Part shown: one piece after another, positions 5,620 through 19,359 of the stretch
Numbering within the stretch: the stretch's first letter is position 1
Layout: each line of letters starts with the position of its first letter
IMG/VR virus record: IMGVR_UViG_3300046804_001095
Coordinates: 1-20,081 of that record
From: a virus
Length of the DNA stretch: 20,081 nt
Strand: one strand, 5' to 3'
Program-made: the position numbers and the translations under genes
Notes under the pieces: model-generated
Told to the model about the DNA's origin: nothing
The model's database searches: none
The model's input: the letters and a program-made list of their open reading frames with translations, nothing else

Positions 5620-5937
5620 TTAGTCACCTCTGATTGAATTACGAAGTTCAAAGAAATCCTCCTCTACTAAAACTACGTAGTTCTCTCCGTCAAGGTGAAG
5701 ACCTAAAACTGGAATGCGACTATCTAAAATCGCCTCAGTAGTGATCTTCTTTAGAACATCTGATTTAATGGTTACTGACTTTTTGCCAGTCCATTTGTGC
5801 TCAATCAAAAGTTCGTCATTGCGTACATCCCCTTTACGAGACCAAAAAGCTCCAGAAGCTGCGGATCGTTTTCCGTCAATCTTCTTAGCCAATCGCTTCT
5901 CATGCTTTAGTGATTGCTTCTGCCCCTCACTCTTCAT
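5620..5937 (-). CDS. Putative PD-(D/E)XK nuclease (Holliday-junction-resolvase-like)
   Basis: A 105-residue basic protein. After a Lys-rich N-terminal helix it reads GKRSAASGAFWSRKGDVRND, with D37 in the GDV turn, then E46-H-K48 in LLIEHKWT, a beta-strand pair with the D...E-x-K layout of PD-(D/E)XK enzymes. The SGA-x-W-x-(R/K)-KGDV and (L)IE-x-K-(W/T)T pattern is one I associate with small phage resolvase-like nucleases. The ATG at 5937 is chosen because GAGGA lies 5 nt upstream; a longer form from 5958 lacks a site. It overlaps the end of recA by 11 nt, which supports a recombination role such as branch cleavage. Substrate is not determined. Confidence 0.65.
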   Translation of the reverse strand: MKSEGQKQSLKHEKRLAKKIDGKRSAASGAFWSRKGDVRNDELLIEHKWTGKKSVTIKSDVLKKITTEAILDSRIPVLGLHLDGENYVVLVEEDFFELRNSIRGD

Positions 5938-7374: not shown

Positions 7375-7783
7375 CTGATACCATCCTTGATTCAATTAAT
7401 CCGATATTTGCTAAAGTTGAAACGCAAGAAACTGCAGCAGATAGGGAAACCATACGGAACAAATGGTTAAGCTGATCTACTTGTTCTGGAGTCATATCCT
7501 CGTTGTTATCCTCGTCTAACATATACGCAGAGGTAGCAATCTTTGCCGCTATATCTGCGTGTGCGTCTATAAAAGGAATTAAAGCAGATATATTTGAAAG
7601 CCTGTCTTGGCTAGCCTGCTCCTCCATCTCAGCAACTTCTGACGATATTGGGGGTAAACCCATAAGCTCTGCTATACCCTCTGTTGGAGTTAGCATCGCA
7701 TCGTAAATAATTTCACGCATTAGTACAGTGAGAGGCACCTGTGTAATAGAAAGCCTCTTCTTCTTACGTCGAAATAGCCTCAC
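7364..7783 (-). CDS. Unrecognised helical protein downstream of DNA polymerase
   Basis: A 139-residue protein with a very basic N-terminus (RRKKKR within the first ten residues), then several predicted amphipathic helices: LTVLMREIIYDAMLTPTEGIAELMGL, and DAHADIAAKIATSAYML followed by an acidic patch (DEDNNED). The C-terminal third is moderately hydrophobic (HLFRMVSLSAAVSCVSTLANIGL). GTG at 7783 forms a 4-nt GTGA overlap with the polymerase stop and has GGAG about 8 nt upstream. Translational coupling to polymerase suggests a replication-related role, but I recognise no family and see no catalytic motif. Confidence 0.7.
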   Translation of the reverse strand: MRLFRRKKKRLSITQVPLTVLMREIIYDAMLTPTEGIAELMGLPPISSEVAEMEEQASQDRLSNISALIPFIDAHADIAAKIATSAYMLDEDNNEDMTPEQVDQLNHLFRMVSLSAAVSCVSTLANIGLIESRMVSDGE

Positions 7784-9756
7784 TTAGCTTCTCCCCATCT
7801 TTTAACGGTAGTTATGTCCGCAAGTAATGGGACAGTTAATGCGTTAATACCTTCCATAGCCAACCTAATTTGTTCAGCAGTTTCTTCTGCTAGTTCTGTA
7901 GGAGTTACAGTAACTAGTTCATCGTGAACTGTGAGTATCAGGTTTGCCTCCCCCGGTATCATTTTATTAGCCCTAATCATAGCAAGCTTAATGATGTCCG
8001 CTGCCGACCCCTGGATAACAGTATTAAAAGCTTGACGCTCTGCTCTAGAGCGTTTCCAGATCTCATTTGATCTTAGATCGGGAAGATACCTGCGACGCTT
8101 TAGAAGGGTGCTTGCAAAAGGAACTGGGGCATGACGGCGGCTCTCACTAATAACCTGACGTTTATACCTAGCAACAGATGGAAATTTAGAAGTAAAGCCA
8201 TCAAGTAAATCTCTAGCCTCAGCTAAGCTACACCCGATAGACGTAGAGATTTTATCTGGACCTACACCGTAAGCTAAAGACAAAACTAATACTTTACCAG
8301 CTTTACGATCAACTCCCATAGTATTTCCAATAGTTGTATAAATATCTTCTCCGTTTAAGTAAGCACCGCACATAATTCTGTCTTGGCTAAACGAAGCAAT
8401 TACACGAGGTTCAATCTGAGAATAGTCAGCAACTACTAAAGAATATCCTTCAGGAGCAACAAAAAGATTACGAATTGCTTTACCATTAGCAGTGTGCGGA
8501 GCCGGCACATTCTGCAAATTCGGATTACGGCTCGAGAACCGGCCGGTCTCCGCACCATACTGAACAAAGTCAGTGTGAATACGGCCCTTAAGCATTAAAC
8601 TCTTCTTAGCAGTAACTTTAGATTTACCTGCAAGAGTTCTAGTAATATCCCCGCCAAGATAAGGGATTACATAAGTAGTTAATAACTTATTTAAATCTGA
8701 ATACTCAATAAGAGCATCCACTAGTGGATCTTTTCCAGCCAACCCTTGTAAAGCGGGTTCAGATACAGAAAAATCAGAAACAGAAGCAGGCTTACCCTCT
8801 TCAGCCCGCCTCTGCCCTGCTGGGGTCAAAACTTTAGGCTTTAGACCCCTGCCCCCATCTTTCTTGGGGGAGAACAATAACTTTTGTTTCTCTGGAACAC
8901 TGTTAATATTAAAAGCCCTACCAGCTAATCTATAGATAGTTGCTTTGGTGGTCTCTAGCTGAACTTCTAGGTTAGCCTTTAACTTTTCCAACTCGTTCAC
9001 ATCTATATCTGCACCGCGTAATTCCATGCGACAGATAACCTCAAGCACATCCATCTCAAGGTTAAAGATTCCACGAAGTCCATCTGCATCTAGTTGATTA
9101 GATAGTTTCAACCATAACTTCCAAGTCCACTCTGCGTCTAAACCAGCATAAGTGGCTACTTCATCAAAGCTGTGCTTTTCTACCTCTTTACCAACACCCT
9201 TAACCATGTGATACCCGAACTCACGCTGCAGGCAGTCATCAAGTCCAAGAGAGTTACGGTTTTGATTATCTAAAATAAAAGAAGCGTTGAGGGTACAGGC
9301 GTACGGCTGAGAAGGCAGGCCACCGATGTACTTAGATACGCTTTGCAAATCAAACTTAAGATTATGCCCAGCCTTTACCTTAGAGCTGTTAAGTAAAGGC
9401 TTAAGGGCCTTAAACACCTCACCGGCAGTTAACTGTTCAGGAGCAGGGCCAAAAATACGTGTGGACTTACGCTCATCCTTACTGTAGTCAGAGTCACGAA
9501 GTTCTAAACCTTTTGCTACACGAGAGGCAGCTGAAGGGAGCAGCGGGTATTCGGTACGAATATACTCACCGTTTGGATGACCCATGGGGATAACATCAAC
9601 TCGATCATAGGTTGCTAATGCAATCCAGGTAACAATATTTTGACGAGGATCGCCTCTATGATCCCCAACAGTTTCTACGTCAAAGCAAAAAGCATCTACT
9701 GCGCCATACGCAGTAACTAACTCATCGAGTTGTTTTTGTGTAGTAATAATGTTCAT
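7780..9756 (-). CDS. Family A DNA polymerase with 3'-5' exonuclease domain
   Basis: A 658-residue replicative polymerase of the Pol I family without a 5'-nuclease domain. The proofreading domain has D26-x-E28, N132-L-K-F-D136 and Y203...D207. The polymerase domain has motif A V-A-D444-Y-S-Q-I-E, the O helix with R484, K488, L492 and Y496-G, and motif C H611-D612-E613. The residue equivalent to E. coli Phe762 is Leu492. Position 762 affects nucleotide selection, and Leu, Tyr and Phe variants are known to divide viral PolA lineages. All catalytic carboxylates are present, so both activities should be intact. ATG at 9756 has GGGAG a few nt upstream. A 13-bp hairpin precedes the gene. It would synthesise phage DNA with the primase and helicase encoded upstream. 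Confidence 0.97.
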   Translation of the reverse strand: MNIITTQKQLDELVTAYGAVDAFCFDVETVGDHRGDPRQNIVTWIALATYDRVDVIPMGHPNGEYIRTEYPLLPSAASRVAKGLELRDSDYSKDERKSTRIFGPAPEQLTAGEVFKALKPLLNSSKVKAGHNLKFDLQSVSKYIGGLPSQPYACTLNASFILDNQNRNSLGLDDCLQREFGYHMVKGVGKEVEKHSFDEVATYAGLDAEWTWKLWLKLSNQLDADGLRGIFNLEMDVLEVICRMELRGADIDVNELEKLKANLEVQLETTKATIYRLAGRAFNINSVPEKQKLLFSPKKDGGRGLKPKVLTPAGQRRAEEGKPASVSDFSVSEPALQGLAGKDPLVDALIEYSDLNKLLTTYVIPYLGGDITRTLAGKSKVTAKKSLMLKGRIHTDFVQYGAETGRFSSRNPNLQNVPAPHTANGKAIRNLFVAPEGYSLVVADYSQIEPRVIASFSQDRIMCGAYLNGEDIYTTIGNTMGVDRKAGKVLVLSLAYGVGPDKISTSIGCSLAEARDLLDGFTSKFPSVARYKRQVISESRRHAPVPFASTLLKRRRYLPDLRSNEIWKRSRAERQAFNTVIQGSAADIIKLAMIRANKMIPGEANLILTVHDELVTVTPTELAEETAEQIRLAMEGINALTVPLLADITTVKRWGEAK

Positions 9757-9779
9757 TCGCGCTCCCGAAGATTAGGTGC

Positions 9780-9827
9780 GCTGAGGGCTCATAGAGAAAA
9801 GGAGACACCAAGAGATGAGCCCTCAGC
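9780..9827 (-). promoter_or_regulatory. 13-bp inverted repeat between SSB and polymerase genes
   Basis: Perfect arms (9780-9792 and 9815-9827, core GAGGGCTC) surround a 22-nt loop. It begins 15 nt after the SSB stop and ends 23 nt before the polymerase start. No U tract follows on either strand, so a simple terminator is unlikely. As RNA it could partly attenuate, protect the SSB mRNA 3' end or set the SSB to polymerase ratio; as DNA it could bind a dimeric regulator. Confidence 0.6.
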
Positions 9828-9841
9828 ACGATTATTTGAGG

Positions 9842-10543
9842 TTAGTTAGCTGATGCAATTTCTCGAGCAATTTCAGCAAGTTCAGCCTTGGTAGAAGTGT
9901 GAAGTGCTTCTGGTCCAAGTGGCTTCATTGTTTTAATTAGCTCTGCTGCTGCAACAGGGTCAATACCCCAATCCTCAGCGAGGTCACGCTCTTTCACAGG
10001 ATTGATTGTGTAAGAGGTTTTTGTACCGGTTCCACTCTTGCTTACAGCCCAGTATAGATCTGGACGGTTTAGAGGTCCGGTCTTTGCATTTGAATCAAGC
10101 TTCTCAAGCTGTCCGCATAGACGAATGCCTACAACCATTAACTGTAGTTGTGGATCTTCGTCAGACAAGTTAAGGACAGTAAACGCAAACTTTTGATCTG
10201 GCTTACTACCAACAGCAATGAGTGGGTCGCCCTCACCAATGCTAATAAATGATTTCTTACCAGGACGATTTACCCAGTGCTGCATAAAGGTCATTGGTTC
10301 ATTACCAATAAACTTGATTAGCTGGACATCTTCGTCAAAACGGAAATCAGTTGCGAAGGATTTACTGGACTTGGCTACAGCCTTTTTAGCAGCTGCCCAA
10401 CCAGTTTGAATTATAGAAGAACGTTCAGGAGTTTCTGTCTCGTCTTCTGCTGCGAAGATCTCTTCGAGAACTTCTTGAGTAGGGGTCTCGCTCACATATG
10501 TGTCGAGATTAGGTGTTGCTTGGTTTTCAATGCGGATACCCAT
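9842..10543 (-). CDS. Single-stranded DNA-binding protein, gp32-like actinophage type
   Basis: A 233-residue protein. An acidic, flexible N-terminus (about 1-45) is followed by GWAAAKKAVAKSS, then a beta-rich core (about 62-200) containing QLIKFIGNEP, QHWVNRPGKKSFISIGEG, FTVLNL, LYWAVSKSGTGTKTSYTINPVKERDL and EDWGIDP. This order matches a family of actinophage proteins generally called ssDNA-binding proteins with an OB-type core resembling T4 gp32. The cysteines that bind zinc in some relatives are replaced here by a Gly/Asp turn (GEGDP), so it probably lacks zinc. It would coat ssDNA at the fork for polymerase and RecA. ATG at 10543 has AAAGGAG 8 nt upstream and lies in a hairpin. The family call rests on pattern recognition. 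Confidence 0.68.
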   Translation of the reverse strand: MGIRIENQATPNLDTYVSETPTQEVLEEIFAAEDETETPERSSIIQTGWAAAKKAVAKSSKSFATDFRFDEDVQLIKFIGNEPMTFMQHWVNRPGKKSFISIGEGDPLIAVGSKPDQKFAFTVLNLSDEDPQLQLMVVGIRLCGQLEKLDSNAKTGPLNRPDLYWAVSKSGTGTKTSYTINPVKERDLAEDWGIDPVAAAELIKTMKPLGPEALHTSTKAELAEIAREIASAN

Positions 10544-10558
10544 TTGGGTATCTCCTTT
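10535..10558 (-). promoter_or_regulatory. Hairpin over the SSB translation start
   Basis: A perfect 7-bp inverted repeat, GATACCC/GGGTATC (10535-10541 and 10546-10552), encloses a 4-nt AAAT loop, with the ATG spanning loop and stem. The Shine-Dalgarno AAAGGAG (10552-10558) abuts and shares one base with the stem. Folding would hinder ribosome entry, a layout suited to autogenous translational control. Confidence 0.5.
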
Positions 10559-10588
10559 CAGTCAATGGATCATAGGTTGATGGTCATA

Positions 10589-11056
10589 TTAAGTTGTTTC
10601 TTGAGTATGAATCTTAGTCCACTTTTCCATCAATTCAATTGATAGATCGTGATGTCGATTCCAATCAACCCTGGGTGCTTCAAGAAGTCCCCGAGATTGA
10701 AAGCTCTCGATAGTTGCTTCGACAATTGCTCTGCTGTACATCCGCCATCCGGGCTTCTTTACACCATTAACAATCATTGACTTTAAGCGATAGGGTGCAC
10801 GTGGTATATAACCTTTTCGTTCCCAAAGTCTCAAAGTAACTAACGGTCTGTTTAGCGCAAGTCCCAAAGAACCTGCACTGAACAATTCTAGCACCTTTCC
10901 ATTTGGAAGAGTCTTTACCTGAGGTTCAGAATCCCAAGTTTCTGGTGTAGAAACTTTTCTAGGTTTTGCTTTTGGATCTGGAGCACGACGTTTGCGCTTT
11001 GACCCTGGGTAGTAATCATCCAGGCTTTCAAAGAGCTTGTCAACTTCGTCGTTCAT
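10589..11056 (-). CDS. MerR-like helix-turn-helix DNA-binding protein
   Basis: A 155-residue protein. Residues 1-50 are charged and basic (SKRKRRAPDPKAKPRK). Residues 57-85 carry a MerR/excisionase-type HTH: LELFSAGSLGLALNRPLVTLRLWERKGYIPRAPYR, where W78-ERKGYIP matches the second helix and turn of MerR-like domains. A wing with GWRMYSRAIVEA (about 103-114) follows. No effector domain is present, so it is more like a phage transcription factor or recombination-directionality-type DNA-bender than a metal sensor. ATG at 11056 has AAGG 6 nt upstream. It lies just upstream of the SSB gene with a 45-nt gap that holds nothing I can recognise. Confidence 0.72.
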   Translation of the reverse strand: MNDEVDKLFESLDDYYPGSKRKRRAPDPKAKPRKVSTPETWDSEPQVKTLPNGKVLELFSAGSLGLALNRPLVTLRLWERKGYIPRAPYRLKSMIVNGVKKPGWRMYSRAIVEATIESFQSRGLLEAPRVDWNRHHDLSIELMEKWTKIHTQETT

Positions 11057-11064
11057 ATATAACC

Positions 11065-11499
11065 TTAAGATTTAGAAGGAATAAAGGCCCAGACCACTTT
11101 CTTAGGAAACATCGTATCAATTTCCTCTTCAGTAAGCAAACCTTCGTAGAGGCAAGACATTACTGCGTCTTCATTTAAAACTGGTTGCATCTCGAAACAA
11201 CGCGAGTATAGATCCTTCTCTGTAAGAATCCTTGTTGCCTGCGCCATATCTAAAGATTGAGAAACTTTACGTTGACGTTGAAGAGAACGGTAACCTTCTA
11301 CTTCTTGGTCTAGTGAATACCACAGATGACCTTTATCATCCGGCACACCTTCTTTATCAACTAAGTCTGATAAGAAAGATTTTACTTCTGATTGTTCTTT
11401 AGTTAGATCTTCGATTCGACGCTTTAAATTAACAAAGTGTTGAACCTTAGCGAGAATTGAATCTACGGGCTTCTTGTCTGGTGGAATAATATTTGGCAT
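11065..11499 (-). CDS. Unrecognised protein with N-terminal coiled coil
   Basis: A 144-residue protein. Residues 15-50 form a charged heptad-like helix (KVQHFVNLKRRIEDLTKEQSEVKSFLSDLVDKEG). A beta-prone segment with GHLWYSL follows, then QRQRKVSQSLDMAQATRILTEKDLYSRCFE and a C-terminal acidic stretch ending VVWAFIPSKS. The order helix, GHLWY, Q-R-(Q/R), and a C-terminal F/W strand is one I associate with unnamed actinophage proteins next to replication genes. ATG at 11499 has GGAGG 5 nt upstream, a strong site. No enzyme motif is seen. Confidence 0.7.
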   Translation of the reverse strand: MPNIIPPDKKPVDSILAKVQHFVNLKRRIEDLTKEQSEVKSFLSDLVDKEGVPDDKGHLWYSLDQEVEGYRSLQRQRKVSQSLDMAQATRILTEKDLYSRCFEMQPVLNEDAVMSCLYEGLLTEEEIDTMFPKKVVWAFIPSKS

Positions 11500-11521
11500 G
11501 GTGCCCTCCTTTGAATACCAG

Positions 11522-11549
11522 CCTATACCATCCCACCGACAAGATGCAA
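11522..11549 (-). promoter_or_regulatory. Weak promoter candidate after hsp20
   Basis: On the minus strand TTGCAT is followed after 16 nt by TATAGG, upstream of the coiled-coil gene and its strong ribosome site. Both hexamers match the housekeeping consensus only partly (4 of 6 each). It lies in the 51-nt gap after hsp20. Low confidence. Confidence 0.25.
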
Positions 11550-11550
11550 G

Positions 11551-12036
11551 TTACTTAATGGTAATAGTCTTGGGCTTCTTTTCTTCAGGAAGTTCCTGCT
11601 TTAGGGTAATCCTAAGTAGACCATCTTTGAGCTCAGCCCCCTTAACAACTACATACTCAGCTAGGGCAAAATTCTGGGAGAATTCGCGACCTGCAATTCC
11701 TTTATGAACATAGTTAGTTTCTGAGTCTGAAAGTTTGCCCTCTACGGTAAGCGTTAGCTCTTTAACAGTGATAGTGATGTCCTTTTTAGAGAAACCAGCT
11801 ACAGCTAGCTCAAGGACGTGTTCATCACCATTTTTAAGAACGTTATATGGCGGATACGTAGATGACTTTGCCTCTAATGCGATCTCTTTAAGAGTTTCAA
11901 ATATCGGGTCAAAACCAATAGCCCATCGATTAATGTTTGGGAACAAGCTATTGAGTGTTAGTGGTGCCTGGATAACCTGTGGCTTTTTGTGCCAATCATG
12001 ATCTGGGTAACCTTTTGGCATGGGTAATTGATGCAT
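11551..12036 (-). CDS. Small heat-shock protein (Hsp20/IbpA family)
   Basis: A 161-residue alpha-crystallin-type chaperone. The N-terminal arm has NRWAIGFDPIFETLKEIA, a segment typical of IbpA-like proteins. The alpha-crystallin domain spans roughly residues 60-150, with YPPYNVLKNGDEHVLELAVAGFSKKDI, LTVEGKL, HKGIAGREFSQNFALAEYV and GLLRITL. The C-terminal tail ends in KTITIK, containing the I-x-I oligomerisation motif. It would form oligomers that hold unfolding proteins for refolding. ATG at 12036 has AAGGAG 5 nt upstream. Small heat-shock proteins are known in marine cyanophages but are less usual elsewhere. A promoter-like element and leader hairpins precede it, so it may have its own control. 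Confidence 0.95.
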   Translation of the reverse strand: MHQLPMPKGYPDHDWHKKPQVIQAPLTLNSLFPNINRWAIGFDPIFETLKEIALEAKSSTYPPYNVLKNGDEHVLELAVAGFSKKDITITVKELTLTVEGKLSDSETNYVHKGIAGREFSQNFALAEYVVVKGAELKDGLLRITLKQELPEEKKPKTITIK

Positions 12037-12060
12037 AATTATCTCCTTAGACGATAACTA
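12034..12060 (-). promoter_or_regulatory. AU-rich hairpin over hsp20 ribosome site
   Basis: In minus-strand RNA UAGUUAUC pairs with GAUAAUUA (8 bp, one G-U) around a 9-nt loop containing AAGGA. The 3' arm includes the last G of the AGGAG and the A of the start codon. An AU-rich weak stem here is the layout of an RNA thermometer, though the Shine-Dalgarno is mostly in the loop. Confidence 0.4.
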
Positions 12061-12066
12061 GTAAGT

Positions 12067-12090
12067 AGACCCCCCATTGTGGGCGAGTCT
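12067..12090 (-). other. Upstream leader hairpin of hsp20
   Basis: In minus-strand RNA AGAC-U-CGCCCA can fold on UGGGGGGUCU around a CAA loop, with one G-G mismatch and a bulged U. It lies in the hsp20 leader between the promoter candidate and the ribosome-site hairpin. No U tract follows, so a terminator role is not supported. Confidence 0.35.
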
Positions 12091-12102
12091 GAGTGTGTAA
12101 CA

Positions 12103-12111
12103 ATAATACCA
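12103..12111 (-). promoter_or_regulatory. Extended -10 promoter candidate for hsp20
   Basis: The minus strand reads TGGTATTAT, an extended -10 (TG-N-TATTAT, five of six bases of the -10 hexamer) about 65 nt before the hsp20 start. The region 17 nt further up (ACATCA) is a poor -35, as allowed for extended -10 promoters. It would give hsp20 transcription independent of the upstream operon. Confidence 0.4.
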
Positions 12112-12117
12112 GGAAAT

Positions 12118-12261
12118 TTATTCCTTGATGTATGCCTTTAGAGCCTCAACAATGACGTCGGTAACCGTACGGCCTTCGATAGCGGCCTTTTCTTTTACGG
12201 CAGACCAAAGGTCTGTAGCAACACGGATAGTACGTGTTGGGGTCTTAGGTGCGTTAGGCAT
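12118..12261 (-). CDS. Ribbon-helix-helix (CopG/Arc-like) DNA-binding protein
   Basis: A 47-residue protein. TRTIRVATDLWSAVKEKAAIEG gives the beta strand and first helix, and RTVTDVIVEALKAYIKE gives the turn and second helix, the full ribbon-helix-helix pattern. Such proteins are dimeric, with the strand residues (around T9-R13) contacting operator DNA. The T-x-R-I-R-V strand and the L-W position fit phage and plasmid CopG-like repressors. ATG at 12261 lies 9 nt after the SNF2 helicase stop; no clear Shine-Dalgarno is seen, so it may depend on reinitiation. It precedes the hsp20 promoter candidate and could be an autoregulator or plasmid-like copy control. No toxin partner is next to it. Confidence 0.82.
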   Translation of the reverse strand: MPNAPKTPTRTIRVATDLWSAVKEKAAIEGRTVTDVIVEALKAYIKE

Positions 12262-12270
12262 TTGACTATG

Positions 12271-13824
12271 TTAAACGAAGGCTGCTTCTAGGAAAGCCTT
12301 AAGTGAACCAAGATTTAAGCTAACTCCACCTTTATCGTCAATTCCTTCACCATCTACGACCGCATTTGCTATGGCCAATTTTTGTGTAAGCATCGCATGT
12401 TGACGCTCTTCAATTGAATCCTGCATAAGTAAATCTTGAATAACTATTGTTTTCCATTCGCTAGACGCCCTACGAATACGGCCGTTCCTTTGTACAGCGA
12501 GACCAGCATTCCACGGCAAGTCATAGTTAACGAGTAAATTAGCTTGAGGCAAGTCCACGCCATAGCCACCAGCATCAGAACTAACAAGGATGCGAACATT
12601 AGGATCAGTCTGAAACTTAAGTTTAGAAGACTCTTTATCTTTAGCATTCATTTCTCCGGTATACGGCGTAGATATATCTCGCCCTAGAGTCTCACGGATT
12701 ATGTCAACCATCTTTACATAACTAGTAAAGATAACTACTTTATTGCCTTCGTAGTCATCTAGAAAGGTATTTACATACTCTTTTAGTACGGAAAGCTTAG
12801 GGGACTTTGACAAAGAGCCTAGTAGGTCTAACTCCTTTAACTCTGCGGCATACTTAGAGGACTCTGCGGATACAGACAATAACTCTGGGTGATCGCACAA
12901 CATTCTTAAAGATAAAAGACGAGACATAATCTTTCCGCGTAATGCGTTTTCTTGATTGTCTCCACCATCGTAGTGTGAAAACAAATCAAAAGAAGAACCA
13001 AAAGACTCTATAGCTTCATCAAGAGTTGCTAATAAATCTCTGACAATATACTTATAAAGCTTGGCCCCAGCAGAATCAAAAGGAACAAGAATGGGCTCAG
13101 CAAAAATTGTTTCTGGAAGATAAGGGGCAACATCAGGATCTGATTGACGCTTACGAACGCAAGCCTCGGACAAGGTCTTATTTAGTAAAGGTAAGTTGCG
13201 GTATCGTTCAACACCACCAAACCGATTACGTACAATAAAAGTTTGATCAAAAAGATCAAATCTACCTAAGACCTTAGAATCAACAAATTGCATAATAGAG
13301 TAGAGCTCTTCTGGTTTTCCGTTTTCTACCGGTGTACCAGTAAGAGCAAACTTATAGGGACTAGATAATTTTTTTACGTGTTTGGATCGTTTTGATTTAA
13401 AACTTTTGATTGCTGTGGCTTCGTCGCAGACAATGAATCCTGTAGGGAGCTGTCGTACATACTCCCAGTCGTTAACAACTTGCTCGTAGTTAATAATGAC
13501 GTAATCCACGAGTGTATGCCCCCAGTCGAAGGCTTCTTGGTATTGGGCAGCACGCTGTTTTGGCGTTCCGTCAATAACCAAAGGTGTTGAAGATCCATTG
13601 GTAAACTTCCTTATCTGGTCAGCCCATTGATACTTAAGGCTGGAAAGGCAAATAATAATGCCTGGCTCTGTTATTGAACCCTCATCCATGAGACGTTCTA
13701 TAGCGGCAATAGTTAAAACAGTTTTACCCAAACCAAGATCGTATGCAACTAACATCTTTCCTCGGGTGCACATGGCATCCACTGCATCCGGTTGATATGG
13801 AAGCAGAGTGCCAGTAAATGTCAT
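12271..13824 (-). CDS. SNF2-family DEAD-like helicase/ATPase
   Basis: A 517-residue two-domain superfamily 2 ATPase. Motif I is GLGK34-T within YDLGLGKTVLTIAAIE, motif Ia CLSSLKYQW, motif II D134-E-A-T (Thr for His), motif III LTGTP165, then the second domain with VVIFTSYV, motif V SSDAGGYGVDLPQA and motif VI Q445-R-N-G-R-I-R-R with the arginine finger. The QRNGR box and D-L-G-L-G-K-T place it in the SNF2 branch, as in many phages. It may remodel or translocate on duplex DNA for replication, recombination or host-defence evasion. ATG at 13824 overlaps the previous stop as TAATG. Confidence 0.95.
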   Translation of the reverse strand: MTFTGTLLPYQPDAVDAMCTRGKMLVAYDLGLGKTVLTIAAIERLMDEGSITEPGIIICLSSLKYQWADQIRKFTNGSSTPLVIDGTPKQRAAQYQEAFDWGHTLVDYVIINYEQVVNDWEYVRQLPTGFIVCDEATAIKSFKSKRSKHVKKLSSPYKFALTGTPVENGKPEELYSIMQFVDSKVLGRFDLFDQTFIVRNRFGGVERYRNLPLLNKTLSEACVRKRQSDPDVAPYLPETIFAEPILVPFDSAGAKLYKYIVRDLLATLDEAIESFGSSFDLFSHYDGGDNQENALRGKIMSRLLSLRMLCDHPELLSVSAESSKYAAELKELDLLGSLSKSPKLSVLKEYVNTFLDDYEGNKVVIFTSYVKMVDIIRETLGRDISTPYTGEMNAKDKESSKLKFQTDPNVRILVSSDAGGYGVDLPQANLLVNYDLPWNAGLAVQRNGRIRRASSEWKTIVIQDLLMQDSIEERQHAMLTQKLAIANAVVDGEGIDDKGGVSLNLGSLKAFLEAAFV

Positions 13825-14021
13825 TAGTTACCCCTTATTATTGCCATTACTTCCACAAGTATAGCAGTGGCAGATTTAGGGCTTCCACTTTGATAGAACT
13901 CGCTGACATGAGCAATCTCGTTAATGATACGAGCACGCAGTTCAGCCTCAGTCTCCGTATATCGCTTTTTCCCCAAATACGCAGTGCTTAGCTTTCGTGA
14001 TGCCGTACTGGATCTGCTCAT
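13824..14021 (-). CDS. Small unknown protein overlapping primase 3' end
   Basis: A 65-residue basic protein. The part past residue 20 (ETEAELRARIINEIAHVSEFYQSG ... AILVEVMAIIRGN) is two amphipathic helices and ends one base before the helicase ATG (TAATG). The ATG at 14021 has GGAG about 9 nt upstream but lies 74 nt inside the primase gene, an unusually long overlap. A TTG at residue 16 (position 13976) would shorten the overlap but lacks a ribosome site. The helical C-terminal part is the more convincing region. Function unknown. Confidence 0.5.
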   Translation of the reverse strand: MSRSSTASRKLSTAYLGKKRYTETEAELRARIINEIAHVSEFYQSGSPKSATAILVEVMAIIRGN

Positions 14022-14925
14022 ACCCCATGTCTCCTATGTCTTTTATACCGCTAGCTCCGTAATTAAAGAACAGGCATTCAAAGCCCTGCTCTTTACTTAG
14101 AGCAAGCATTTCTTTAGAAGCTTTTTCTCCAGCCTTATCAATACTAGGGTTATCGAAAGCAAAAATCAACTTCTCAGCTTTACGAAACAAAGCAACCTGG
14201 TCCGAGCTGACACTGGCTCCAAAAGTTGATACGCCTTGACTCAATCTCATTGAGCTCAGTTTTACGACATCCAAAGGAGACTCAACTACGACCATAGTTG
14301 TAGAAGTCCAGACATCTAAACCAAAGAGCGTAGTAGATTTCTTGACTCCAGTAGGTCTATTGCGGAAAGTTCTATTGCTCTGACCCTTTTCTTGCCAACC
14401 CAAAAGTTTTCCGTTCTCAGGATTTCTTATAGGGGTAATCCAAGCCTCTTGACGCCTATCCCATCTAACCCCGTAAGTATCGCAAGCCGTATCAGTAAGC
14501 TGACGTGCCTGTAATGCCCAGTCAGGCGGCCTGTCAAACACTGCAAGGCGTGCTTCGCTCATCTCTACCGGCTTAGGTAAAGAAACGTAAGACTCCCTGA
14601 GTTCCTCTAACTGTTTGGTTAGTTGTTCAAAATCAACTTCAACATTTGCACGAAGCCACTCTTTTGCAGCTTCAAGATCTAACCGGCCCCAAGAAGTGTT
14701 TAACTCTTTAACCTCGGCTACAAGAGTTAGAAGTGTGCCTTTGTATCCACAGGAGAAGCAGTGGTGGACACCAGAATCACAATTCATAGACCAAGAAGGG
14801 TTGTGATCTTCCCGACCAACACGTTCTAAGTGCATGGGGCAGTAACCTTGTAGCTCTCGGTTACGTTGTTCTGTTAGAACACCGAGACGCAACAAAGCCT
14901 GTTGAACATCTCCATCACGATACAT
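13948..14925 (-). CDS. DnaG-type DNA primase
   Basis: A 325-residue primase with a CHC2-type zinc finger (C29, H32, C56, C59; GYCPMH ... HHCFSCGYKG), a middle linker with coiled region (about 97-115), and a Toprim domain. Toprim has VVVE215 and the acidic pair D258 and D263 in FAFDNPSIDKAG, i.e. D-x4-D instead of D-x-D, with A-G after it as usual. The domain would make RNA primers for the polymerase, recruited by the DnaB helicase. ATG at 14925 follows directly on the TAG of the upstream gene (TAGATG) with no strong Shine-Dalgarno, so coupling is probable. Length is short compared with bacterial DnaG, since the helicase-binding C-terminal domain is absent. Confidence 0.9.
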   Translation of the reverse strand: MYRDGDVQQALLRLGVLTEQRNRELQGYCPMHLERVGREDHNPSWSMNCDSGVHHCFSCGYKGTLLTLVAEVKELNTSWGRLDLEAAKEWLRANVEVDFEQLTKQLEELRESYVSLPKPVEMSEARLAVFDRPPDWALQARQLTDTACDTYGVRWDRRQEAWITPIRNPENGKLLGWQEKGQSNRTFRNRPTGVKKSTTLFGLDVWTSTTMVVVESPLDVVKLSSMRLSQGVSTFGASVSSDQVALFRKAEKLIFAFDNPSIDKAGEKASKEMLALSKEQGFECLFFNYGASGIKDIGDMGYEQIQYGITKAKHCVFGEKAIYGD

Positions 14926-15141
14926 CTATGAAAAGTCAGCAATCACTCGATACATAATCTCAGTGTAAACCGCAGCATTAGATGCTAAGTCTTCTGGATG
15001 ATGCAAGTCTTTAGCAGTGCTTGGCCAGTTAGAGTACATATAACCACGCAAGCTTTCTGCAAACTTATCTACAAACTGATCAATAGTCATATACCCGCGT
15101 TCAATAAGCTGCTCATCTGTAGGCATTTTAAATTTAGCCAT
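14926..15141 (-). CDS. Small unknown protein between zinc ribbon and primase
   Basis: A 71-residue protein starting at ATG 15141, chosen because GGGAGGG lies 6 nt upstream; the longer frame contains unlikely N-terminal residues. It has MPTDEQLIERGYMTIDQFVDKFAESLRGYMYSNW and a C-terminal helix (AAVYTEIMYRVIADFS). The composition is helical, neutral to slightly acidic, without Cys or motifs. The stop abuts the primase ATG, suggesting coupled expression with primase, perhaps a partner. No family recognised. Confidence 0.68.
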   Translation of the reverse strand: MAKFKMPTDEQLIERGYMTIDQFVDKFAESLRGYMYSNWPSTAKDLHHPEDLASNAAVYTEIMYRVIADFS

Positions 15142-15322
15142 TGTATTCCCTCCCGTCGATAGGTGTAGGAGCTGTTGCGAGTGCATCACACAAGGCACAC
15201 TGCATATCAAGCATGTATAAGGAAATCTCCCCATCCTCAAACATAGCCTTTACGTTCCACAAAGTCGAACCGCAAACACACACGTGTAACGGAGCGTCTT
15301 TGTCTCTAAGATCTAAACTCAT
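15134..15322 (-). CDS. Small zinc-ribbon protein
   Basis: A 62-residue protein with two cysteine pairs, C15-x-C17 (HVCVCGSTLW) and C42-x2-C45 (MQCALCDA), typical of small actinophage zinc-binding proteins. Between them lies an acidic beta-hairpin (FEDGEISLYML). ATG at 15322 forms an ATGA overlap with the WhiB stop and has GAGGGC 6 nt upstream. Possible roles are a nucleic-acid or protein adaptor in replication; the name of the family is not known to me. Confidence 0.75.
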   Translation of the reverse strand: MSLDLRDKDAPLHVCVCGSTLWNVKAMFEDGEISLYMLDMQCALCDALATAPTPIDGREYNG

Positions 15323-15573
15323 ATTAATGCCCTCTTTCGTCGTCGCATATTTCTACGTTCATTTGGAGTCGTAGCTCCCCAGATACCCTCAAGGCTTGAA
15401 TCCTTGATTGCATACACCAAACACGCTGAGGTTAAAGGACAGCTTTGGCAGATAGCTTTAGCTTGTAGCACGGCTATTCTGTCATCATAGTCTTCTGGAA
15501 AGAACATCTCCGGATCCACAGACTTGCAAGCTTGAGTTCCATCAAATGGTACTGATTCCAAATAGAGATCCAT
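15319..15573 (-). CDS. WhiB-family transcription factor, canonical type
   Basis: An 84-residue Wbl protein with the four cluster cysteines C16, C42, C45 and C51 in the canonical C-x2-C-x5-C order (ICQSCPLTSAC), then EGIWGATTPNERRNMRRRKR, where GIWG is the sigma-contacting turn and the basic tail contacts DNA. ATG at 15573 lies 32 nt inside the DnaB gene, with GGGAAG and GAAG upstream; longer forms would translate the helicase frame and look unnatural. This copy is sandwiched in the replication operon, unlike the second WhiB at 5290-5619. It may switch transcription between host and phage promoters. Confidence 0.93.
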   Translation of the reverse strand: MDLYLESVPFDGTQACKSVDPEMFFPEDYDDRIAVLQAKAICQSCPLTSACLVYAIKDSSLEGIWGATTPNERRNMRRRKRALI

Positions 15574-16783
15574 ACTCTTCAAACTTCCCTTCTTCCCAGT
15601 CCCATAGCAGATCACTTGTAGCCGGTCCGCAGTTACGGCTTGCAACGATACGTAGTTCACGAGATGTGTCATCTTCCTCATCTTGCTTTTGCAAACCAAG
15701 GATTACATCAGAATCTTGATAGAAAGATGATGAATAACCAATAGCATCTGCTGATACTTGACGCTTCTTCATCTTCCACAATAGAACCTGAGTAGAGATA
15801 ACAATAGGAAGTTTCTTAGCCATAGCTAAATGTTTTAAGTTGCGAGTAATGTTTGTAAGTGCTTGAGGGCTATTGGATTCCCCAGTTACCTCATCAGTCA
15901 TGAGATAGACACCATCTACAAATACGATGTCAGGACGAATCTTGTCGATCTTTGCAGCAAGACCTGTAACAGTCATTGCAGATACAGAATCGGTTAGATA
16001 AAACTTGTGCATCGTTTCCATTGCTTTCAACTCAGCCATGTAACGATCTTCTTCAGCTTTAGTCAGGGCCCCGCGAATGAGCCGAGAGTGAGCAATGCGA
16101 GCACGCATCGAGTCGTGTCGCTGCTGCTGCTCTAAGTTGGTCATCTCAAAAGATTGGAACATTGGAACAAAGCCGTCTCTATGTACGTTGACTGCCATCT
16201 GCATTGCAAGGACTGATTTACCTGTCTTAGGTGGAGCGATAATGGTTACAAGTTGTCCTGGCTGTAAACCTGCAGTTGCCTCATCGATTGTTTTAAACCC
16301 AGTTGCAAAACCTAGTAAACCATTTGGTCGTGTCTTGATATTTGTGTAATCATCAAAGCGTTTAGTGGCGTTATCAGTTAGATCAATATCCCCGGACTCA
16401 CGAACGCCCTCATCAATTAGTCTTGCTACACCTTGACTAAGAACAGCAATAGCGCCGTTATGATCACCACTAGCAATAGCTTCGGAAGCATCCTGAACAA
16501 CTGTGATTGCGTGTTGACGTTTGCGGTATTCAACTAACTGATCTAAAAGATACTCAAGAGTGTCATCAACAGCTAACAAACGATAGGTTGGAAAGTTATC
16601 TAGAACAGTAACTGCAGTAGGTACTTCTTGATATTTAGTCCAATGTTGACGTAAGAATCTCCAGACTTGACGATTTTCATCAACAAAAAACCAGTCGTCA
16701 GTAACTCCTGCTTCAAGTAATGGAGAGATATCTCGGGTTCGAACAGCTCGAGATAATAATCTGACCTCGTTGTCTGCTGCCAC
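15542..16783 (-). CDS. Replicative DNA helicase, DnaB-like
   Basis: A 413-residue RecA-fold helicase. A helical N-terminal domain (about 1-130) precedes the core. Walker A is A-P-P-K-T-G-K189-S190, followed by FQSFEM (the DnaB-type catalytic Glu E213), Walker B IVFVD290, and QVLLWKMKKRQVSADAIGYSSSFYQDSDVILGL with a Lys/Arg-rich loop. It would form a hexamer unwinding the fork. GTG at 16783 has GGGAGG 5 nt upstream and overlaps the previous stop as TAGTG. The DnaC-like loader two genes upstream would place it, and the primase downstream would partner it. It is somewhat shorter than bacterial DnaB. Confidence 0.95.
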   Translation of the reverse strand: MAADNEVRLLSRAVRTRDISPLLEAGVTDDWFFVDENRQVWRFLRQHWTKYQEVPTAVTVLDNFPTYRLLAVDDTLEYLLDQLVEYRKRQHAITVVQDASEAIASGDHNGAIAVLSQGVARLIDEGVRESGDIDLTDNATKRFDDYTNIKTRPNGLLGFATGFKTIDEATAGLQPGQLVTIIAPPKTGKSVLAMQMAVNVHRDGFVPMFQSFEMTNLEQQQRHDSMRARIAHSRLIRGALTKAEEDRYMAELKAMETMHKFYLTDSVSAMTVTGLAAKIDKIRPDIVFVDGVYLMTDEVTGESNSPQALTNITRNLKHLAMAKKLPIVISTQVLLWKMKKRQVSADAIGYSSSFYQDSDVILGLQKQDEEDDTSRELRIVASRNCGPATSDLLWDWEEGKFEEYGSLFGISTI

Positions 16784-17187
16784 TATAACCTCCCAGTATC
16801 AATAAACTTACTGCCGTATCTTAAACCTCTCGATGGGATATCTACAACTCCCATAAGTTCCGGTCTATATGGTAACTCTGCTACTAGATCAGATACTACC
16901 GGGTAGGCAATCGCATAGTTAAATGGATTAGTCCCAAGATTATTTAAATCTTCTAAAACCTCGTCCATCTCTTTTTGTGAGTACCCAAACCCAACTAATT
17001 CTAAAGTGTAACTAAACTTTTCTGCAAAACGCCAAAAGAAAGAAAGTTGCTGCCGGTTGTATACAGACTCTTCGCTGAATACTGGTATGCCCAATACTTT
17101 TTTTACATTAGGTCTTTTATCGAGAATACAATCTAGAGTTACTGCAACCCTTAAAGGAATCTCGTTAGATATGTCGCCCCCACGCAT
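16783..17187 (-). CDS. Unrecognised protein upstream of DnaB helicase
   Basis: A 134-residue protein with no Cys pair or P loop. It reads IPLRVAVTLDCILDKRP at the N-terminus, a long aromatic helix FWRFAEKFSYTLELVGFGYSQ, then NPFNYAIAYPVVSDLVAELPYRPELMGV. The VAVTLDCIL strand resembles the first strand of HAD-type hydrolases, but only D19 is in place and the other HAD motifs are not clear, so I leave it unnamed. ATG at 17187 lies 2 nt after the SWIM-gene stop with a weak ribosome site, suggesting coupling. Between loader and helicase genes it may be a replisome accessory. Confidence 0.7.
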   Translation of the reverse strand: MRGGDISNEIPLRVAVTLDCILDKRPNVKKVLGIPVFSEESVYNRQQLSFFWRFAEKFSYTLELVGFGYSQKEMDEVLEDLNNLGTNPFNYAIAYPVVSDLVAELPYRPELMGVVDIPSRGLRYGSKFIDTGRL

Positions 17188-17189
17188 AT

Positions 17190-17486
17190 CTACAGCACTT
17201 CAATTTTGCCGTAAGTAATCAGTAAGTTTCTAAAAGCTTTAGGATCTTTCTGTGCGACAGCAGCATCGAGTTTAGATGCTTTGCTAGAGATAGCTGTTGG
17301 ATAAACTCCGTCGTTCTCATCCATACGGGTTTTTACAAAACGGGTATGTTTGCAAGAGTTTCTAAAGCCAAACCCATCACAGTTACAACGTAACCTTAAA
17401 GAAGACATGTTGATCTCTACTTCGTGAACTCCTGTGTCTGAAAGAAACAATTGCATTGCTTTCCAGTAAGTCATTGCTGTCCTCAT
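17190..17486 (-). CDS. SWIM-like zinc-finger protein
   Basis: A 98-residue protein. The core RLRCNCDGFGFRNSCKHTRFV carries C34-x-C36, then C45-x-H47, the C-x-C...C-x-H layout of SWIM domains, which bind zinc and often DNA or protein. A beta strand (VHEVEINMSSLRLRC) leads into it, and a helical tail with KASKLDAAVAQKDPKAFRNLL follows. ATG at 17486 makes an ATGA overlap with the loader stop; a second ATG four codons later with AGGA 5 nt upstream is possible. Its position between helicase loader and helicase suggests a replication accessory. The motif is visible but the name rests on it alone. Confidence 0.75.
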   Translation of the reverse strand: MRTAMTYWKAMQLFLSDTGVHEVEINMSSLRLRCNCDGFGFRNSCKHTRFVKTRMDENDGVYPTAISSKASKLDAAVAQKDPKAFRNLLITYGKIEVL

Positions 17487-18157
17487 CTACGTCGATCCCC
17501 TTTCGCTATTATGTCAATTGGAATGAAAGCTTCGTATGCAAAACTACCCATAGCTTCGCCATACACCGTGCTCCAACTCTTTAGTGGAACGTTAGTTGTA
17601 ACGATAGTTGGAAAACCAGCATTAAACCTAGAGCGTAGTAAAGCATCAAATGTATTTTCCGCCCAACCGGTAGCTGTGCGGTGTTCTTTGCCCAAATCGT
17701 CTAGAACAAATGTTCGAACGTTATGTTCTCTGGAACCCTCTCCGTAAATCCCATTGATCATAGTTTCGATGCTGTCATCAAACTCTGACCACTGAGCCTT
17801 CTGAACCCTAAGGAGCTTTGGATAGTCCATAAACATGGCTGGGCGCTTTGGGTTCAAATCTGGCATGCCCCAGGCCTCCCTAGACATACCCCTAATAAGC
17901 TCCTGGAGGGCCGTAGAGGCGAGAGTAGTCTTCCCGTGACCTGGTTCACCTACCAAGAGCAATCCACGACCGCAATTGGGGTTTCCGGCTGCTTGTATAA
18001 CTTTCCCAGCCTTGACCATCTCAACCCACATCTTGACCTTTTCTAGGGAATCAGATGGCTCGATATCTGAGAACTCCCACCCAACAGTTTTCATTGGGAG
18101 GTTTGCTCCGTTGATCTGTGCCCGGAGTGTTCCTGGTAATTCTGAAATGTTATACAT
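17483..18157 (-). CDS. DnaC/IstB-like AAA+ helicase loader
   Basis: A 224-residue AAA+ ATPase. Walker A is G70-E-P-G-H-G-K76-T77, Walker B FVLD153-D154-L, and sensor 1 TIVT-T188-N189. A short N-terminal arm (about 1-35) replaces the larger helicase-binding domain of DnaC. The family loads the DnaB hexamer onto origin DNA, and the gene lies between an initiator and the helicase, the layout of lambda O-P. ATG at 18157 is chosen because GGAGG is 4 nt upstream and it overlaps the previous TGA by one base (TGATG); a GTG directly before it would be too close to the ribosome site. The C-terminal arginine-rich tail (GDRRR) may contact DNA. Confidence 0.9.
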   Translation of the reverse strand: MYNISELPGTLRAQINGANLPMKTVGWEFSDIEPSDSLEKVKMWVEMVKAGKVIQAAGNPNCGRGLLLVGEPGHGKTTLASTALQELIRGMSREAWGMPDLNPKRPAMFMDYPKLLRVQKAQWSEFDDSIETMINGIYGEGSREHNVRTFVLDDLGKEHRTATGWAENTFDALLRSRFNAGFPTIVTTNVPLKSWSTVYGEAMGSFAYEAFIPIDIIAKGDRRR

Positions 18158-19056
18158 CACCCCTCCAACATCTTAAGTAACTTCTCTTGATGAGCCAACG
18201 TATCCTCGTCCAACTGAGTGGACTCCGCAACTCGACTAACAATTCCGTGAACTGTTCCGTAGTATTTCATAAACCGCTGGTATACCGGCAAACCTACACC
18301 AATATCGTTCAACATTCTAGGGTCATCAAAAAACATACGCATACCCTTGAGAATAGATATACGAGCAACTCCTTGCCCAACCAATCTGTTAATCCAGGTA
18401 ATCAAATGTTTTCCGTTTACTTGATTTGGAGCACCGGCATGGATTTTCATGTACATGTCGTAAAACTCAGCAACTAGCTCACCAGTTGTCCAATCTTCTT
18501 CTGGAACATTAATTCTGTCCCTAGACTCTTTCTCAACTTTAGTTTTCTTTGGTCGGGCACCCCCAACTTTTAGAGCGCTAACCTTTCCGATAGATCCTGA
18601 GTCATCTTCGGTATCTAGAACAACTTTGCGTTTTGGCTTTTCCGGGGTTGTGTTATCTCCGAGTCCTGGCCATCCCATTGCAACCTCTCCTTTTCCTTTT
18701 TGGGGCGCAGCCCCTATAGATACAGTTACGTTAGTAACTGTATCTATATCTTTACTACTAGTAGATAGATCACTAGTACTAGTTACTGTATCACTACCTA
18801 TGTATAGAACGCCTGAAAATCCGTCGTCGGTGAATTTCAGTGCTGTACGCCATTGACCAGAGTTATCTTGGTGTCGAACAGCTTTAATGTACCTATGGAA
18901 CTTAAGTTCTGACATAGCGTTTCTAATTGCATCGCGTCCTTCTGGAACTGACGCAGACATTTCTTCCGCAGATAAAACGCGGCCTACTTCAACATAGTAT
19001 GCAAAAAGACCCCTAGCACGAAGTGATAGGTTTGGGTCTGAATATGGTGACTTCAT
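18157..19056 (-). CDS. Phage replication initiator with N-terminal winged helix (lambda-O-like)
   Basis: A 299-residue protein in three parts. Residues 1-80 form a winged HTH: LSLRARGLFAYYVEVGR, EGRDAIRNAMSELKFHRYIKAV and NSGQWRTALKFT. Residues 81-185 are a Ser/Thr/Lys-rich, probably disordered linker. Residues 186-299 are helical, with AEFYDMYMKIHAGAPNQVNGKHLITWINRLVGQG resembling primosome/DnaD-type C-terminal domains. Such proteins bind the origin and hand on the helicase through the loader. ATG at 19056 has GGAGG about 5 nt upstream, inside a hairpin. The next gene is the DnaC-like loader, which supports an initiator role. The linker-coding DNA holds a palindrome cluster (18702-18792). 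A general transcription factor is the main alternative. Confidence 0.72.
   Translation of the reverse strand: MKSPYSDPNLSLRARGLFAYYVEVGRVLSAEEMSASVPEGRDAIRNAMSELKFHRYIKAVRHQDNSGQWRTALKFTDDGFSGVLYIGSDTVTSTSDLSTSSKDIDTVTNVTVSIGAAPQKGKGEVAMGWPGLGDNTTPEKPKRKVVLDTEDDSGSIGKVSALKVGGARPKKTKVEKESRDRINVPEEDWTTGELVAEFYDMYMKIHAGAPNQVNGKHLITWINRLVGQGVARISILKGMRMFFDDPRMLNDIGVGLPVYQRFMKYYGTVHGIVSRVAESTQLDEDTLAHQEKLLKMLEG
18702..18792. repeat. Palindrome cluster inside the initiator gene, candidate origin
   Basis: In 91 bp there are a 5-bp GC hairpin (18702-18714, GGGGC-GCA-GCCCC), then directly a perfect 15-bp inverted repeat (18715-18729 and 18734-18748, 4-nt GTTA loop), a 10-bp palindrome CTACTAGTAG (18755-18764) and a 12-bp palindrome ACTAGTACTAGT (18772-18783). 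GTTACTGTATC at 18782-18792 repeats the right arm segment GTAACTGTATC (18734-18744) with one change. The stretch encodes linker residues 88-118 of the initiator. Lambda and relatives place their origin iterons in exactly this part of gene O. Confidence 0.55.
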
Positions 19057-19083
19057 AGTCTCCTCCTTCTTGGAGGACAGACT
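19057..19083 (-). promoter_or_regulatory. Hairpin sequestering the initiator Shine-Dalgarno
   Basis: Minus-strand RNA has AGUCU-GU-CCUCC, loop AAGAA, then GGAGG-AGACU directly before AUG. The 10-bp stem (2-nt bulge) locks GGAGG in its 3' arm. As DNA, it is a near-palindrome beside the promoter candidate and could equally be an operator. Confidence 0.5.
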
Positions 19084-19110
19084 CTATAGTGGAGGAACCC
19101 TTCTTGGCAA
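19083..19110 (-). promoter_or_regulatory. Promoter candidate for the replication operon
   Basis: On the minus strand TTGCCA (19110-19105) and TATAGA (19088-19083) are separated by 16 nt. The -35 matches five of six consensus bases and the -10 four of six. It overlaps the 3' end of the membrane-protein gene, and its start point would fall inside the hairpin before the initiator. Confidence 0.4.
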
Positions 19111-19359
19111 ACCGCGAACAACTCGCTCTGGGGTTCCGGTCACAAGATTCTCAATAATTACCGATGATGTTAGTCCTAGAAAAGCTGCAGCTAGTACATA
19201 AAAGATCTGGTCCCAGCCCATTGGCCTAAGAACTAAACAAGCTACTGTGCTCATAGATAGGGCAAGTAAGCCTCTCCACTTTCCTAAGGATATTAATAGT
19301 TCTTCTATGGCCGTTAATACGCAGGCTACAGCCCAAGCTGCTACTAATAGTTCAGTCAT
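19084..19359 (-). CDS. Small membrane protein with three hydrophobic segments (possible holin)
   Basis: A 91-residue protein with hydrophobic segments at about 3-25, 30-45 and 51-73, followed by a basic cytosolic-type tail (ERVVRGLPRRVPPL). Size, three helices and charged tail fit holins and other small phage membrane proteins, but holin families are diverse and nothing specific is recognised. ATG at 19359 lies 10 nt after the tail-protein stop. The closest AAGGAG is about 14 nt upstream with a small GTAGG/CCTAC repeat between, so initiation may rely on coupling. The endolysin is at the other end of the window, so a lysis cassette is not demonstrated. Confidence 0.65.
   Translation of the reverse strand: MTELLVAAWAVACVLTAIEELLISLGKWRGLLALSMSTVACLVLRPMGWDQIFYVLAAAFLGLTSSVIIENLVTGTPERVVRGLPRRVPPL

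Follow-up and report, generated by a model that had tools for sequence, protein, structure and literature searches.

The linker-coding DNA of a putative phage replication initiator carries a cis element under nucleotide-level constraint. The element was found in the window, a stretch of 20,081 nucleotides of viral DNA (IMG/VR record IMGVR_UViG_3300046804_001095). It consists of a long perfect hairpin whose pairing is conserved through compensatory change, a second hairpin next to it and an AT-rich stretch of short repeats, and it is followed by the signature of an internal translation start. We see about an even chance that the element is the core of a replication origin, embedded in the DNA that encodes the initiator's linker, in a phage family that reaches about 100 kb and whose hosts are probably actinobacteria.

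The initiator gene and its surroundings

In the window, the initiator gene lies upstream of the genes for a DnaC-like loader and DnaB (Table 1), and the preliminary description had rightly recognized both the loader and the N-terminal winged helix of the initiator. The AlphaFold model of the initiator (mean pLDDT 63.5) comprises a winged helix (residues 12–75), a disordered linker (residues 79–167) and a helical C-terminal domain (residues 173–297); as modelled, the linker is encoded by DNA that runs through both the hairpin element and the internal start. The winged helix matches wHTH folds, among them the DnaD N-terminal domain 2v79 (Z 7.3) and 4pql (Z 7.5), with which many other wHTH folds tie. 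The full-length model matched only generic wHTH proteins in the PDB, plus viral HTH and initiator models, and for the C-terminal domain on its own no PDB structure was a convincing match (best Z 4.2), which excludes nothing.

The window protein falls into no family in Pfam or NCBIfam, its PHROG matches comprise 'DNA binding protein' families and one family of unknown function, and a profile search of PDB sequences reached its best E value, 0.024, with haemoglobins. Among 38 members of the alignment, PHROG matches were to 'DNA binding protein' (19/38), 'replication initiation protein' (16/38), 'DnaD-like helicase loader' (6/38) and 'O-like' (5/38) families; all were weak, with best E values of 1.6e-5 to 3.7e-4. 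With the relative L386 as query, tblastn matched phage HTH proteins, starting at E 3e-4; matches carrying a DnaD or replication-initiator annotation had E values of 9e-3 to 0.3. By similarity and model, the gene appears to encode an initiator of the DNA-binding type, with separate N- and C-terminal domains, beside loader and helicase genes.

Several further features of the genomes were recorded. Two WhiB-like proteins (window 5290–5619 and 15319–15699; PF02467, E 1.1e-17 and 7.2e-17) point to an actinobacterial host. A RecA-like recombinase and an Hsp20-family protein are encoded in the same gene block (window 5927–6988 and 11551–12036), and a terminator-like 13-bp perfect stem (AAAAAACCCCCGG / CCGGGGGTTTTTT, window 398–430) lies just downstream of the leftmost gene (431–1609, minus strand). 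When window positions 7780–19359 were compared with L276 and L277, the gene order loader, DnaB, primase, helicase resembled that of the Streptomyces phages BRock and LuckySocke (112.5 and 114.6 kb), and the likeness to LuckySocke extended to SSB and Pol I. The two phages were rejected as sources of initiator relatives, the protein at the initiator's place looking unrelated by eye. Three records of about 100 kb (G003, G005 and G006) have exact end overlaps of 94, 123 and 123 bp, respectively, which suggests that they are complete genomes.

Table 1 Features of the initiator region in the window.
Feature	Position	Strand	Basis or remark
DnaB-like replicative helicase gene	15542..16783	(-)	PF03796, E 5.3e-30; phrog_19
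DnaC-like helicase loader gene	17483..18160	(-)	phrog_50, E 8.1e-23
Initiator gene	18157..19056	(-)	299 aa ORF; AlphaFold model; weak PHROG matches in alignment members
Predicted second product from internal ATG (M127), 173 aa, without winged helix	18157..18678	(-)	
Internal start codon	18676-18678		
Shine-Dalgarno-like AAAAGGAG of internal start	18687..18694	(-)	match of at least 5 in 95/98
Hairpin 2, GGGGC-TGC-GCCCC on coding strand (+ strand GGGGC-GCA-GCCCC)	18702..18714	(-)	pairing kept in relatives, letters vary
Hairpin 1, perfect 15-bp inverted repeat, 4-nt loop TAAC on coding strand (GTTA on + strand)	18715..18748	(-)	arms 18715-18729 and 18734-18748; 32-nt core 18716-18747
AT-rich ACTAGT-repeat stretch, T/S linker code	18749..18800	(-)	just upstream of hairpin 1 on coding strand
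10-bp palindrome CTACTAGTAG	18755-18764		
12-bp palindrome ACTAGTACTAGT	18772-18783		
Near copy of 11-bp arm	18782-18792		91%
Winged-helix domain, residues 12-75	18832..19023	(-)	AlphaFold model; wHTH fold matches

Hairpin 1 is constrained at the level of nucleotides

The preliminary description had listed a 15-bp inverted repeat, a GC hairpin, 10- and 12-bp palindromes and a near copy of an 11-bp arm, and had placed them in the linker-coding part of the gene. All of these pieces are real and lie where Table 1 gives them; what that list missed was the internal start, the covariation of hairpin 2 and the exchange of arm types. Its view that the 15-bp repeat is unlikely by chance holds against 30 dinucleotide shuffles of the whole window, in which the best perfect arm was 11 (loop up to 8). 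For the one gene the evidence is modest, because the linker peptide is itself palindrome-compatible: when synonymous codons were shuffled within the window gene, 13 of 10,000 trials reached a 15-bp arm in the linker, so that the repetitive T/V/S code could indeed contribute, as had been suspected.

The relatives confirmed that the element is real, through letter-level constraint and a hairpin that is kept. A protein search of viral contigs, with peptide patterns that avoided the element, yielded 47 loci; the element arms are exact in 45, and the other two stop short of the element. When 32 distinct genes collected independently of the element, the window included, were aligned by codon, the stretch ATA GAT ACA GTT ACT AAC GTA ACT GTA TCT AT proved identical in 32/32. 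Columns with a constant residue use a single codon in 11/11 cases inside the element vs 8/97 elsewhere. In a wider set of 43 type-A genes, all distinct and 42–100% identical at the protein level, the corresponding values are 10/11 and 0/49, invariance here being partly by construction because part of the set was gathered by its arms. The near copy of the arm is matched at 10 of 11 positions in 6 of these 32 genes and at fewer in the other 26.

These codon counts bear on the notion that the hairpin is a by-product, with a palindrome-prone T/V/S-rich linker kept by selection on the protein, or with template switching correcting one arm to the other. The synonymous shuffles that reach 15 bp fit the former and the wobble-free perfect symmetry could stem from such arm-to-arm copying, but the codons are frozen inside the element and the peptide itself is unconserved between arm types. 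This explanation is already largely refuted, and we consider it extremely improbable.

The element is also confined to one place. An exact-pattern scan found 62 stretches with type-A arms, and the 17 that were new all lie in initiator genes at the same position. Among 18 records of 18.6–101.6 kb, 17 contain exactly one element match, and the eighteenth, G017, carries the type D described below. No other perfect hairpin with arms of at least 11 bp recurs in 1.4 Mb of loci around initiator genes.

Discrete arm types and compensatory change

A profile search gave relatives of 46–51% identity (best 80 of 203) with other palindromes at the same place. Among the matches listed for a degenerate pattern that fixed only the outer ATAG-TA and the centre CTAACG, 216 of 218 lie in initiator genes, with 14/14 positions paired (overlapping pieces included); the remaining two, L219 and L245, lie in unrelated genes and have 10 and 8 of 14 positions paired. 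In all, 11 arm types were distinguished, mostly with the loop TAAC. This loop is shared by A (ATAGATACAGTTAC), B (ATAGTTAAAGATAC), C (ATAGATAATAATCC), E (ATAGTTAATAATCC), F (ATAGATAAAGATAC), G (ATAGATACAACTAC), H (ATAGATATAGATAC) and I (ATAGATATAACTTC), and type D (GTATTAGAAGTAC) has the loop TAC. Type J (L384) combines TAAC with unrelated arms, perfect over 10 bp and then, by eye, with one mismatch and 4 pairs, and type K (L386) has 15-bp arms with the loop AA, or 14-bp arms with the loop TAAA. L384 and L386 are the most divergent elements found.

Scans that were not aimed at the element supplied 163 loci (from the 47 above, the best 80 of 224 and the best 80 of 216 relatives). Scored as the longest perfect hairpin, hairpin 1 is present in 158/158 of the loci that showed the motifs on either side (81 distinct sequences, from these scans and best-80 lists), and the perfect arms are at least 13 bp long in 80 of the 81. 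The five loci left out, in which the two flanking motifs were not both found, comprise three that are cut short and carry the element (L044, L317 and L375) and two that do not reach it (L046 and L047). The profile searches cover the best 80 of 203, 224 and 216 relatives, and the degenerate pattern the matches listed, so that more distant relatives may lack the hairpin. Since overlapping pieces of a single contig account for many of the loci, distinct genes were counted where possible (98 genes; 81 regions); since the genes are related, such counts are not independent events. No comparable hairpin was seen in nine cultured phages, Clawz among them, whose initiator-like genes are distant; the 10-bp GC-rich hairpin of Wheelbite gp84 is within its shuffles.

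The arm types are discrete, with 95 of the 163 unaimed loci being exact type A and none lying 1–3 letters away. Across the eight types that could be aligned, 6 of 14 pairs change on both sides and 0 on one side only (the shuffle control ignores relatedness), with no G-T pair among 112 cells. The linker peptide varies meanwhile (IDTVTNVTVSI, IVKDTNVSLTI, IDNNPNGLLSI and others) and a 13–15 bp hairpin stays, so the palindromes do persist while the linker residues drift, a pattern that the preliminary description had thought worth looking for. Pairing in the element is thus conserved through compensatory change.

One copy per record and arms around a short asymmetric centre could also suit another DNA transaction, such as site-specific recombination, partition or the start of packaging. 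We regard this as very unlikely: in 158/158 scored loci the hairpin lies inside the initiator gene, between the winged helix and the C-terminal domain. Moreover, the type-A arms, the only type searched in this way for host or prophage copies, gave 0 matches in the genome_contigs collection, so no shared attachment site was seen.

Hairpin 2 and the AT-rich repeat region

Hairpin 2 directly follows hairpin 1 on the coding strand. It was followed through 98 distinct genes, a set found with patterns of the element that demanded perfect pairing. Of these, 97 have arms of 5 bp or more vs about 2% of control positions, the exception, L154, having GGG-AAA-CCC. The letters vary freely, with variants such as GAGGC-TGC-GCCTC, CCCGAGC-AA-GCTCGGG, GAGGCGC-AA-GCGCCTC, TTCGAC-TGC-GTCGAA and TTCAGC-TGC-GCTGAA, among others. 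An intrinsic terminator was rejected on both strands: on the coding strand no T tract lies behind either hairpin, and on the + strand of the window TCTTTACTAC, behind hairpin 1, came up in a pattern scan but lies in a flank that is not conserved.

The 10- and 12-bp palindromes are less conserved and dissolve, among relatives, into ACTAGT repeats of varying number, 0 to 5 per 70 nt. Upstream of the hairpins, the 98 distinct genes hold 158 copies of ACTAGT vs a mean of 17 in synonymous shuffles, a ninefold excess. ACTAGT is absent within 70 nt in 11/98 genes, and a related hexamer occurs within 90 nt in 98/98. In 12 records, 1–3 copies lie near the element out of 3–29 in the whole record. Tandem slippage may contribute to these repeats, which are only 6 bp long and exceed the synonymous expectation.

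A conserved putative internal start behind the hairpins

Of the 98 distinct genes, 83 have ATG and 15 have GTG at the position two residues ahead of the first Trp that follows the element. Elsewhere in these genes Val is encoded by GTG in 118/1911 cases, so a freely chosen Val would hardly give GTG 15/15. Consistently, a Shine-Dalgarno match of at least 5 precedes this codon in 95/98 genes vs 96/723 of the other in-frame ATG/GTG codons, and a match of at least 6 does so in 75/98 vs 6/723. The conserved in-frame signature predicts a C-terminal-only form of the initiator.

The hairpins lie just upstream of this internal ribosome site in 98/98 distinct genes, with a distance from hairpin 2 to the Shine-Dalgarno sequence that varies among relatives. 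Because hairpin and ribosome site always occur together in the genes examined, both hairpins may instead act in the transcript, where they would govern translation from the internal start (or mRNA processing) and set the ratio of full-length to C-terminal product. The conserved ribosome site and ATG/GTG directly downstream of the element in all 98 genes favour such control, but the spacing from hairpin 2 is variable. The asymmetric loop TAAC is retained in L384 despite unrelated arms, and its survival of a complete arm change suggests recognition of one strand; C(UAAC)G fits the UNAC tetraloop class. The RNA fold is strong (z −3.95), but DNA folding is equally unusual (z −5.14), and the window gave 0 Rfam matches at the gathering score. 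RNA stems usually tolerate some G-U pairs, and the eight aligned arm types contain none in their 112 cells; by eye, types D, J and K showed no wobble, nor did the second hairpins, the perfect-arm searches themselves being blind to wobbles. The discreteness of the arm types, with 95/163 loci exact and no near variants, is likewise more than a mere stem requires. We consider control in the mRNA, the main alternative to an origin, somewhat doubtful.

The arm type is decoupled from the initiator, loader and helicase

In the relatives compared, the arm type does not follow the winged helix, the loader or DnaB. The same 32 nt of type A serve winged helices that are about 40% identical; conversely, L158 (type E) and L133 (type B) have winged helices 97.5% identical and different palindromes, and in the closest B/F and B/E pairs the initiators, loaders and helicases are 91–96% identical. 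The simple model in which the winged helix reads the arms was therefore rejected, the two being decoupled. When G006 was set against other type-A records and records of other types in a crude best-match comparison (best 12 of 205 rows), no obvious DNA-binding candidate tracking the arm type was seen by eye, which does not exclude one.

Arms serving as repeated regulator sites were also rejected, own-type arms not being enriched elsewhere in 12 records, and the excess of half-sites in the window (15 vs 5.1 expected) was set aside for this reason. A perfect dyad with discrete arm types in AT-rich surroundings could still be a single operator, at which a regulator from phage or host acts on an internal promoter or keeps the replication operon repressed. 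This is unlikely: there is a single site per record in 17/18 and no excess of own-type arms elsewhere, no promoter-like match was found at the element in the window, and a regulator leaves unexplained a hairpin 2 whose letters vary freely while its pairing is kept. The shared ACTAGT region, for its part, could be the initiator's site.

Duplex stability and strand composition

Duplex stability, computed from nearest-neighbour stacking values, is lowest over 100 bp at the element in the window and in records G001 (101.6 kb) and G012 (29.6 kb). The other 10 sequences contain 2–7 clusters at least as unstable as the surroundings of the element. When the element is left out, the 60 bp upstream rank among the lowest 0.1–2.8%, with 3–73 clusters at least as unstable. 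The site is AT-rich, DUE-like, easily opened DNA, a property less pronounced in the upstream DNA alone.

In 12/12 records, co-oriented genes show an increase in third-position GC skew at the element, and cumulative skew has minima near the element in some (G007, G012 and G017). At fourfold-degenerate sites, GC skew shows no consistent step at the element and no clear origin elsewhere. The step therefore reflects the amino-acid composition of the tail and replication modules, and GC skew, to which the preliminary description had looked for a signal near 18.7 kb, was rejected as origin evidence. The abrupt shift of third-position skew between the tail and replication modules, absent at fourfold sites, is a trap for skew-based origin calls.

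A candidate origin within the initiator gene

If the element is an origin core, the initiator would assemble on the AT-rich repeat region and the weakly paired duplex would open. Hairpin 1 (and hairpin 2) might then fold out or mark the opened strand, and the DnaC-like loader would place DnaB at the opened site. The internal ribosome site behind the hairpins would make the C-terminal-only form; without a DNA-binding domain, this form may modulate or end initiation, like Rep'/pi30.5-type proteins. Origin activity, strand opening, helicase loading and the role of the short form are all inferred here. An origin within the initiator gene, as in lambda O, had been the central proposal of the preliminary description. 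Persistent palindromes, weak O-like and DnaD-like matches, the loader and low duplex stability argue for it; arms decoupled from the winged helix, the lack of 18-bp iterons and the absence of a skew step at fourfold sites argue against it. Other observations that weigh against an origin are the short and variable ACTAGT repeats, the upstream DNA that is less special without the element, the distant genes of the nine cultured phages, and hairpins that always lie upstream of the internal ribosome site, which an RNA function fits at least as well. An origin and RNA control of the internal start could both be true.

Tentatively, and as one possible reading, the element may be an origin module with discrete, interchangeable hairpin alleles, read by something other than the winged helix and coupled within 100 bp to the start of a short form. 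The reader of the alleles might then be a host factor, or the alleles might diversify to escape origin-directed attack, like that of Odn on PLE origins. A single stretch would in that case serve as linker code, origin and translation-start region.

Comparison with known systems

The lambda origin lies inside the initiator gene O, combines symmetric repeats with an AT-rich region and works with the co-expressed loader gene P (PMC6022878). A site within an initiator gene (an origin in lambda, a candidate origin here), symmetric repeats and AT-rich DNA are common to lambda and the element. The lambda origin contains four iterons of 18 bp and an AT-rich region of 39 bp, whereas the element has a single long hairpin whose arms can be exchanged, accompanied by short ACTAGT repeats, another hairpin and an internal start codon; an ungapped repeat search of 18300–19200 found no lambda-like family of 18-bp iterons. 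In SPP1, oriL lies in gene 38, the gene of the origin-binding protein, which acts with the loader gp39 and the DnaB-type helicase gp40 (PMC6316719). SPP1 differs by its direct repeats, which accompany an AT-rich region, and by a further origin, oriR, and the cited part of that source mentions no long hairpin.

The layout of the protein has a counterpart in the RepA_N plasmids. In pSK41 (PMC5703833), a winged-helix N-terminal domain and a helical C-terminal domain are joined by a dispensable linker that encodes the origin, and the N-terminal domain binds four Rep boxes. Covariation of the RepA_N domain and the origin is described for PLE satellites (PMC8263062), whereas arm type and winged helix do not covary in the element. 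That source also offers, in PLE and ICP1, a precedent for the exchange of origin modules under attack. We therefore propose that the element works like an embedded origin, not that it is a member of such a group, because the ACTAGT region could still be the initiator's site and the arm type is decoupled from the winged helix.

Shorter in-frame replication proteins are described for pIGRK (RepR/RepR'), R6K (pi), phiX174 (A/A*) and M13 (pII/pX) in PMC6854812. An internal in-frame start is common to such Rep/Rep' pairs and the window gene, whose short form is predicted from sequence only and, unlike theirs, would lose the whole winged helix and start just behind hairpins. Word searches of open-access literature, which leave differently worded or subscription papers out of reach, found no description of the combination of exchangeable hairpin alleles, decoupled from the DNA-binding domain, with a conserved internal start.

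Implications

The origins of uncultured phages have seldom been located from sequence alone. Here, letter-level constraint across many related loci pins one origin candidate to 32 nt inside a protein gene, and the 11 arm types are natural double mutants that amount to a ready-made genetic experiment. If the element is an origin, it offers a test of whether pressure from parasites or hosts makes phage origins diversify independently of the initiators. As an RNA switch, it would show a phage setting the ratio of two initiator forms through hairpins within its own coding sequence. Either way, the element provides a DNA signature for classifying these phages.
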